From the NCBI GenBank assembly GCA_021464245.1, contig JADCRB010000016.1:4829250-4893249 (forward strand): DNA of 64,000 bases, given 5' to 3'. The stretch is from Carallia brachiata (lineage: Eukaryota; Streptophyta; Magnoliopsida; Malpighiales; Rhizophoraceae). A program made the translations under genes and the position numbers. The notes beneath the pieces were generated by a model. That model ran no database searches. It saw only the letters and a program-made list of their open reading frames with translations, and had not been told where the DNA came from. Positions 6,201 to 8,449 of this stretch are shown one piece after another (the stretch's first letter is position 1; every line of letters begins with the position of its first letter).

Positions 6201-8449
6201 TCGAATTGATAGTAGCACATATGCACAATTTCATTGGTTTGATCTAACATAATTTCTCATAGTGTTTATGCAAGGCAGAATATAACCAGCAACTAAAATG
6301 TATAATATATACCATGGTCAAGCCAACAAACAATTAAAGCTTAGAGCCGAATCATTTGAATGCGTCAGGAAACCATGAAATAAGGATAGAATACATGATG
6401 ACCACTTGTTAAATATATTTTGGGAGGAAATGAAAATTTTTACTTTTGTCGAACTTCCCAGACAATCAAATTTAGACTGAGAAGTCCCCAAATCCAGAGA
6501 AAAGACATAATACAATCAAAGCAAACTGCAATCATCACATCATGCTGGCATAAAAAGACATGCATACTCACACATTCTTCTAGTGAAAGCACACTTGCAC
6601 ACAAAAATTGTCAATTAAGTCACTCCAAACCTTTGGTTCCTTTCCGTTCAAGATTTTTCCAATTTGACGAGCCATGAGAGTCTTTCCGGTTCCAGGAGGC
6701 CCATAAAGCAGCATGCCTTTTACATGCTTAATCCCCAATCTATATCATCAAGGCTTCATTATCAAGAACATAAATATAGAAATAGCTTTGTTCGAGTAAC
6801 CTGAAGAATTTGTCATTACTTGCTTGTCACGTGAGGTGGAAAAACCCGAGAGGCAAAAGCTCTACGAAATATATCAGCGAACTCTGCACTTAAGCCACCT
6901 ATACCCAATGATTGAAGATTGAATTCCTTTTGCCTAAAGATGTTGCTACTGGCAGCCTCACGTTGATTAACAATCTGCATGAAAATGAAAGGTGAGAAAT
7001 CTTTTCACTTTTAACTAAACTCAGGGAACCAATCAATGAAGTCTACAAACTAGCCAAAAGCCATAGTTGTAAACTGGGAAAAAACAAATTTCAGAAAAAT
7101 ACCAAATATGAAACATCGCTTGTGATGAACCATTACATGTCATCACAAACAACTCAAAAGCATGTTTTACAGGCCATGAACTTAGCAGGCATATAATTCT
7201 GTAAAATACAGAGGAACATAAACAGGCATGTGCCGGAAACTATACATGTGAGAATCATAATGGAACACATCAAAATAGCTTTACAAATTTCGTGCATGGT
7301 AAACTAATACATCTTCCATGAAACAAGTGCACATGAAAACCGAACAAAGACAAATACAGGCTCAAAATAGAAGTATGAAAACCAACCTTTATGCCGCTGG
7401 CATTAGAGGCTCCAAACACAATGTATGTGTCACTTGAAATCATCCCCCTTTCAAGATCATTAGATTTTTCTCTTCCTTCCACTGCAGCTTGAGTAACCGT
7501 AAAAATATAATTAATTCCATAAAATTCAAACGATACCCTTTGCCCTGATGTCATAACCTGCATAAAACACCAGATTCCATAACCATCAGAACAAAAAGCC
7601 ACACTGAACAGATCAACATCATCTAACCGGTAAGGAGGAAAAAGTTGACGCTACCTGGTTAATAAACCTCTTCCTAAGTTGTTTGGCCAGTTCAACAGCA
7701 TCAATCTAACAAACAAACATTTTAAACAAAAAATTATCAACCTCTGCTATATTCCAAGACCCTAAACAAAATTCTGAATTTCGATAATAGTATCGCAAAT
7801 TCATAAATACCTGCTCATTTTTATTCCCTTTTTTCACAAATTCCAGCTCAAGCGTGAGCAACGCGAGGTTGAAGTCATCAGGAGGGATAAACCTAAACCA
7901 ATTATCAGCCAAACAAATGAAAAAAAAAAAAAACAAACAAAAAAATAAATAAATAAATAAGATATAATCAATTTGACCTGCTCACGGATATGGTGTCACC
8001 AGTGGAAACCCTAGCGTACCGCCGTTGAATGGCGTTAAGAGCAATGCGACCAGGACCAACGGCCTCGTGCGGAGTAAACCCGCCGTTAAGGCCAACAAAA
8101 GTTCAATTATTATTAAAGCATATAATCTGAAGATTAAAAACAAACACATTTCGATCATCTTATCAAACCATAGGCAACGACTGGCGGATCCAATCATAAA
8201 CAGAAATTAACGAAAATCAGAGGCAAAACGAAAGTCGAGAAGCGGCTGGAAAATGAAAGGATATGAGAGCGATAGAACGAAGGAATCGGCGATCAAGGCC
8301 ATGAAGAGCTTGGTTCCCGGGACGGCGAAGTTGTGGAGATCGGACGGCGAGCAATAGGCGAGGTTCGTTAGGGCGAGATCCGCCGACGGCGTGTTTGTCA
8401 CGATCATGCTCTCCGGTGCAGAGGACAGGAATCCGAACCGGGCCGCCAT
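274..8449 (-). CDS. NSF: Vesicle-fusing ATPase NSF, 21 exons, 743 aa
   Basis: Hexameric AAA+ ATPase that, with alpha-SNAP, uses ATP to take SNARE complexes apart after membrane fusion; acts in the cytosol and on Golgi/endosomal membranes. Coding exons read on the minus strand: 8449-8265, 8073-7978, 7892-7811, 7705-7655, 7557-7387, 6974-6820, 6739-6631, 5910-5811, 5726-5671, 5030-4965, 4831-4749, 4415-4282, 3961-3751, 3557-3426, 3331-3271, 3163-3104, 2840-2782, 2553-2466, 1887-1765, 732-667, 417-274. All phases match and no stop interrupts the join. N-terminal substrate domain is about residues 1-200. D1 Walker A GPPGTGKT is at about 260-267, Walker B FDEID at 327-331, and the second region of homology [17 protein letters not shown] at 372-388. 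D2 Walker A GSSGSGKT is at about 540-547 and Walker B VLDDIE at 598-603. The C-terminus ([12 protein letters not shown]) and full length match plant NSF. The ATG at 8449 opens the conserved start MAARFG. Introns 2-20 are GT-AG; intron 1 is not (see separate entry). Intron 19 holds a Tourist-type MITE. Appears functional. Confidence 0.96.
920..1174. mobile_element. Tourist/Harbinger-type MITE in NSF intron 19
   Basis: A 255 bp element with perfect 12 bp terminal inverted repeats TGCTTTGTTTGG / CCAAACAAAGCA, flanked on both sides by the 3 bp target duplication TTA (917-919 and 1175-1177). TTA/TAA duplications and TIRs of this kind are the signature of PIF/Harbinger MITEs. The interior is AT-rich and noncoding. 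It sits wholly inside the intron and should be neutral to splicing. Confidence 0.88.
1951..2010. repeat. Compound TG/GC/GA microsatellite in NSF intron 18
   Basis: A tgtgtg-cgcgcg-tgcg run passing into (ga)n lies between exon 19 (ends 1887) and exon 18 (starts 2466). It generates a spurious open frame and has no coding meaning. Confidence 0.8.
8074..8264 (-). other. NSF intron 1: probable U12-type AT-AC intron
   Basis: On the minus strand the intron begins ATATCCTTT, the consensus 5' splice site of U12 AT-AC introns, and ends TTTAC. A branch-site match CCTTAAC lies at about 8085-8091, 11-13 nt before the 3' end, the spacing U12 introns use. Removing exactly 191 nt joins ...SFVLSL to [17 protein letters not shown], which is what NSF orthologues have at this position. 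No GT donor near the end of exon 1 gives the conserved protein, and the first in-frame extension adds about 21 unconserved residues and then a stop. Confidence 0.85.

Follow-up and report, generated by a model that had tools for sequence, protein, structure and literature searches.

Does the NSF gene of Carallia brachiata, which would encode a vesicle-fusing ATPase, begin with an intron of the minor (U12-type) class, and would its output then depend on the minor spliceosome? The question arose in a 64-kb stretch of genomic DNA (hereafter the window), in which a first-pass annotation had placed an AT-AC intron directly after the first NSF exon. We addressed it through the splice signals, the competing junctions, the homologous proteins and the minor-spliceosome RNAs of the same genome.

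The NSF gene model

Judged from its N domain, its AAA ATPase modules and its full-length similarity, the gene is NSF (vesicle-fusing ATPase); we take At4g04910 to be the NSF gene of Arabidopsis. The model is complete within the 64-kb window, with 743 codons and no internal stop. Two Pfam families exceeded their cut-offs, AAA over two stretches (167.8 bits) and CDC48_2 (32.1 bits), and CDC48_N, at 29.8 bits, fell under its Pfam cut-off of 35.1 bits. Many of the protein homologues are titled vesicle-fusing ATPase, and the PDB matches are NSF and Sec18. Exon ends were set by eye, guided by the expected protein and by an expectation of GT-AG junctions; the GT-AG ends found for introns 2-20 thus follow in part from how the model was built. 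The features on which the argument turns are the following.

274..8449, minus strand: NSF coding region; 21 coding exons, 20 introns (19 GT-AG, 1 AT-AC), 743 aa
8265..8449, minus strand: NSF exon 1, coding part; ATG at 8449, phase 2 end, ...LSL-S
8264..8074, minus strand: NSF intron 1, predicted AT-AC U12-type; 191 nt, phase 2, 36% GC
8256..8264, minus strand: predicted U12-type 5' splice site ATATCCTTT, at the start of intron 1
8085..8091, minus strand: predicted U12-type branch motif, CCTTAAC, whose branch A lies 12 nt before the 3' splice site
8074..8075, minus strand: terminal AC dinucleotide of intron 1, read from the sequence
7978..8073, minus strand: NSF exon 2, from the gene model

Exon 1 closes with ...TCGCTCTC at 8265 and exon 2 opens with TCCGCACGAGG at 8073; the coordinates 8074..8264, under which the AT-AC first intron had been annotated, are exact in this model. 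Two adjoining C/D-box snoRNA matches, snoR30 (9747-9852, 62.4 bits) and snoR31 (9968-10061, 66.1 bits), lie on the plus strand upstream of the gene, opposite to NSF.

U12-type signals of intron 1

Intron 1 begins with ATATCCTTT and ends with CCTTAACGGCGGGTTTAC. All NSF introns were scored against the donor consensus ATATCCTT ([A/G]TATCCTT) and, 10-15 nt from the 3' splice site, against the branch consensus TCCTTAAC, both as printed in PMC2426677. The donor of intron 1 agrees with the consensus at 8/8 positions and its branch site, GCCTTAAC, at 7/8, having GG instead of TT before CCTTAAC. The other 19 introns are all GT-AG; none exceeds 5/8 at the donor, and the best branch score among them, 6/8, belongs to two introns, in which the motif lies 4 and 8 nt before the intron end. 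The three U12 signals announced by the first-pass annotation were thus all recovered: a full donor match, CCTTAAC with its branch A 12 nt from the end, and a terminal AC. Taking these signals together with the reading frame, the homologous proteins, the genomic snRNA matches and the inferred conservation, we hold it to be almost certain that the first coding intron of C. brachiata NSF belongs to the minor class (U12-type), with AT-AC ends.

A second perfect ATATCCTTT nonamer occurs at 5744 (minus strand) in NSF intron 8, near the end of that GT-AG intron; within 2.5 kb downstream of it no strong U12 branch motif was found, and the nonamer is probably there by chance. Isolated strong U12-like signals at 23301 (minus strand, TTCCTTAAC) and 47765 (plus strand, GTATCCTTT) had no good partner in a relaxed scan for further U12 introns, which yielded only weak pairings in the rest of the 64-kb window.

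Chance and competing junctions

Could the motifs have come together by chance? On the two strands of the window taken together, [AG]TATCCTT occurs four times and CCTTAAC six times. Defining a proper pairing as [AG]TATCCTT followed 50-1000 nt downstream by CCTTAAC and then by the matching terminal dinucleotide, we found a single one, NSF intron 1, against a background of 0.19 pairings per window, at any place, in 300 windows simulated with a first-order Markov model. Since the only pairing falls exactly on the junction that the protein needs to restore its frame, a chance origin is very unlikely and was rejected.

It had also been claimed that only the AT-AC splice restores the conserved frame. 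We tried GT-AG, GC-AG and AT-AC junctions with a donor from 8349 on, an acceptor up to codon 71 (8048) and an intron of at least 45 nt, and 18 of them were in frame and stop-free (12 AT-AC, 4 GC-AG and 2 GT-AG), so the claim needs to be narrowed: two of the 18 come within two residues of the conserved protein length, and 8264/8074 alone gives it exactly. No GT-AG or GC-AG junction among those tried does so in place of 8264/8074, and both in-frame GT-AG junctions, 8323/8064 and 8278/8064, shorten the protein.

These last two bear on one rival explanation, that a nearby U2-type GT-AG junction is in use and the U12 motifs arose by coincidence. In its favour, neither junction shifts the frame or introduces a stop; yet at 8278/8064 the donor (TTC/GTTCTATCG) and the acceptor (CGCACGAG/GCC) are both poor by eye, the splice would cost the protein eight residues in a region of constant length in 152 of the 178 listed homologues, and the U12 motifs pair above chance expectation. 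We consider use of either junction highly improbable. We give equally little credence to another rival, in which an alternative upstream first exon is used and exon 1, with intron 1, lies outside the main mRNA: exon 1 encodes residues 1-62, many plant homologues align from the first residue onwards, with 100% coverage over residues 1-220, and the exon 1 residues align with solved NSF structures from about residue 11.

Putative traces of the intron in homologous proteins

Three protein searches, from which the best 120 of 527, 494 and 320 matches respectively were kept, together yielded 178 distinct proteins. Wherever a source is named, it is a flowering plant; many of the proteins are titled vesicle-fusing ATPase, others hypothetical, and some carry no title. 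Among the matches listed, the best identity to NSF residues 1-220 is 84%. At the junction, 152 of these 178 have the regular length, two are not anchored by the search pattern but look regular by eye, and 24 are irregular at or beside it, cacao, cucumber, melon and hemp among them. Sixteen proteins with 'lgn' as their sole source label were picked from the matches listed, and all 16 are regular; we infer that their contigs, 2.36-2.87 kb long, are spliced transcripts (mRNA), because they contain the 2.2-kb open reading frame of a gene that has 20 introns here.

The irregular records are informative in their own right. A gene finder that rejects AT-AC ends and overruns exon 1 would read TC/A TAT CCT TTN and so append S-Y-P-F/L (from xTATCC); one that enters exon 2 too early would translate AC/N as Thr (ACN), an AG end giving Ser or Arg (AGN) instead. 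Among the listed homologues, S/T-Y-P stands at the edge of exon 1 in 11 of the 24 irregular records (Populus alba, Salix suchowensis, Euphorbia peplus, Linum perenne, Fagus crenata, Carpinus fangiana, Theobroma cacao, Quercus lobata, Quercus suber, Lithocarpus litseifolius and Eucalyptus globulus) and in the first 130 residues of none of the 152 regular ones. The residue before exon 2 in the irregular records is Thr in 15, Ser or Arg in none and another in nine, the Thr records including Cannabis, Cucumis melo and single ones of Magnolia sinica and Papaver armeniacum. Comparing NSF orthologues, as the first-pass annotation had advised, and doing so on proteins, we thus find at least one putative trace of an AC-ended U12 intron in 18 of the 24 irregular listed records, with both traces in eight and neither in six (P0062, P0076, P0145, P0152, P0172 and P0173). 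Seven species, Theobroma cacao, Quercus lobata, Quercus suber, Populus alba, Linum perenne, Cannabis sativa and Punica granatum, have regular and irregular records side by side, which points to annotation as the cause, although some of the paired records may be different loci.

These counts come from proteins alone and include related species, which are not independent events. The protein traces are blind to the first intron base, TCA and TCG both encoding Ser, so that the AT end in other species is deduced from the AC end. Thr also occupies the split codon in five of the 152 regular listed records, where it may be a trace that happens to leave the length equal, or an exon 1 that ends in AC. 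The regular records of monocots, Persea and Nymphaea are silent on the intron type there. One of the records with neither trace, P0062 (Liquidambar formosana NSF), has an irregular junction with Asn before exon 2, which could reflect an AA-ended intron in Liquidambar or another model error; among the non-canonical minor introns of plants, those with AT-AA ends are the most frequent (PMC10639083).

Other plants, mostly rosids, probably carry an AT-AC U12 intron at the same NSF site, often misannotated, if the protein traces are read as above. The species were sorted into rosids and others by their usual taxonomic placement, and outside the rosids the traces are single ones, in Papaver and Magnolia. 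The case for a U12 intron in C. brachiata is independent of how deep this conservation goes. Faulty NSF gene models of the kind described could spoil domain analyses and clone design.

Matches to minor-spliceosome RNAs and the predicted consequence of retention

In minor splicing, U11 and U6atac recognise the 5' end of the intron and U12 its branch site. We searched the same genome (337.5 Mb, 164 contigs) for these RNAs at Rfam cut-offs, which were exceeded by three of four U12 matches, nine of ten U6atac matches and both U11 matches, some of which may be pseudogenes. None of U11, U12, U6atac and U4atac had a match in 14 control genomes, a weak control given that the four named ones are archaea. 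U4atac gave no match in the C. brachiata genome either, and the controls being equally silent for it, absence is not implied. The best U6atac match reads GAAAGGAGAG and forms seven consecutive pairs with positions 4-10 of intron 1, that is, full complementarity; the best U12 match reads GUAAGGAA and forms six pairs with CCTTAAC when the branch A is bulged. The U11 match starts near AAAAGGG, which could pair with the CCTTT of intron 1.

The mechanism that we propose is that U11, and then U6atac, would pair with ATATCCTTT of NSF intron 1, that U12 would pair with CCTTAAC with the branch A bulged out, and that the minor spliceosome would then excise the intron. In the computed translation, retention of intron 1 brings a stop after 80 codons, 62 of NSF and 18 derived from the intron. 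Lying upstream of the later exon junctions, this stop would leave a message that makes no NSF product and is probably degraded. Because of the early stop, NSF output should need minor splicing, and we expect the gene to depend on it. In that case NSF, a core membrane-trafficking gene, would join the plant genes that are predicted to rely on the minor spliceosome, and its first intron would offer a testable path linking impaired minor splicing to impaired growth.

A second intact NSF gene could bypass intron 1, and this possibility was set aside, the genome search, in which only the best candidates were scored, having found no such copy beyond a decayed fragment. The latter lies elsewhere in the genome (L017, G000:C101:9805500-9815400, from about C101:9814335 downwards) and contains no more than the first two exons and the intron between them, further NSF exons having no match in the stretch examined. 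Its exon 1 has lost the ATG and shows a one-base gap in the alignment to the NSF gene, and its intron starts with ATATTCTTT and ends in GC. Identity to the NSF gene is 146/185 in exon 1, 147/191 in the intron and 77/96 in exon 2, as compared with 8/9 at the 5' splice site, 5/7 at the branch and 4/5 over the last five bases. The signals have therefore drifted about as fast as the rest of the copy, as in neutral decay, and the fragment is no test of selection. As its alignment reads, it is a genomic piece, putative U12 intron included, that was duplicated and then decayed.

Does minor splicing limit NSF output?

Beyond dependence, the first-pass annotation had suggested that minor-spliceosome activity could limit NSF output. 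Applied to this gene, the reading would be that slow minor splicing of intron 1 sets the NSF level and that minor-spliceosome activity thereby tunes membrane fusion. Several observations are in its favour: retention would bring an early stop, hence splicing should be required; intron 1 is seemingly common to other plants; and slow U12 excision has been proposed to down-regulate genes, explaining the persistence of U12 introns (PMC2426677). For Arabidopsis, a single NSF gene has been reported (PMC8096068), and C. brachiata has one intact copy among the best-scoring candidates. Against it, PMC10639083 holds that minor introns may have evolved to a large extent by neutral processes, that they are in stasis in land plants, and that between human and Arabidopsis they are less conserved than major ones, which disputes the higher conservation claimed in PMC2426677. 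Given neutral evolution and land-plant stasis, conservation alone is no proof of regulation. Nor is the place of intron 1 near the 5' end special, minor introns being 5'-biased in 112 of 290 Streptophyta species (PMC10639083).

We consider it unlikely that slow splicing of intron 1 sets the NSF level; that minor splicing may limit NSF output is a hypothesis. Slightly less likely still is the extended proposal that intron 1 has been kept as AT-AC since early flowering plants because it acts as a slow-splicing rheostat, through which minor-spliceosome capacity would control SNARE recycling and membrane fusion. Were the rheostat true, shifts of minor-spliceosome capacity under stress or during development would reach membrane fusion at large.

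Comparison with known systems

The statement that AT-AC introns make up a very small fraction of plant introns, made in the first-pass annotation, is right in order of magnitude (PMC7367187, PMC5932401): IAOD holds 269 Arabidopsis U12-type introns, 26% of them AT-AC (PMC7367187), and another AT-AC estimate, 4.8%, is quoted in PMC5932401. Earlier work has described U12 introns, including the AT-AC form and cases conserved among plants, of which CBP20 is one (PMC5932401). In the literature searched we found no publication linking NSF with a U12 or AT-AC intron, and the four mentions of 'nsf' looked up in papers on the subject are funding lines; supplementary tables or intron databases may list the gene. 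NSF intron 1 may be seen as a further example of the AT-AC U12 class, one that genome-wide intron tables may already include.

NSF intron 1, which is in phase 2, belongs to the same class as the Arabidopsis U12 introns; those are biased against phase 0, a bias that is not significant in soybean, rice and maize (PMC7367187). A functional parallel comes from the fungus Rhizophagus, in which vesicle-mediated transport is enriched among minor-intron genes (33 versus 12.82 expected; PMC10639083). A minor intron in NSF is not at odds with this pattern, although Rhizophagus belongs to another kingdom.

The closest likeness is to intron 4 of CBP20, which also has AT-AC ends and a U12 branch motif and is also a lone minor intron among major ones, in what is likewise a core cellular gene (PMC5932401). 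The minor intron of CBP20, unlike NSF intron 1, is the fourth and lies between the core and the tail of the protein. Its position is conserved across plants, as established by comparing gene structures from liverworts to higher plants (PMC5932401), whereas for NSF the corresponding picture is drawn from one genome together with protein inference.
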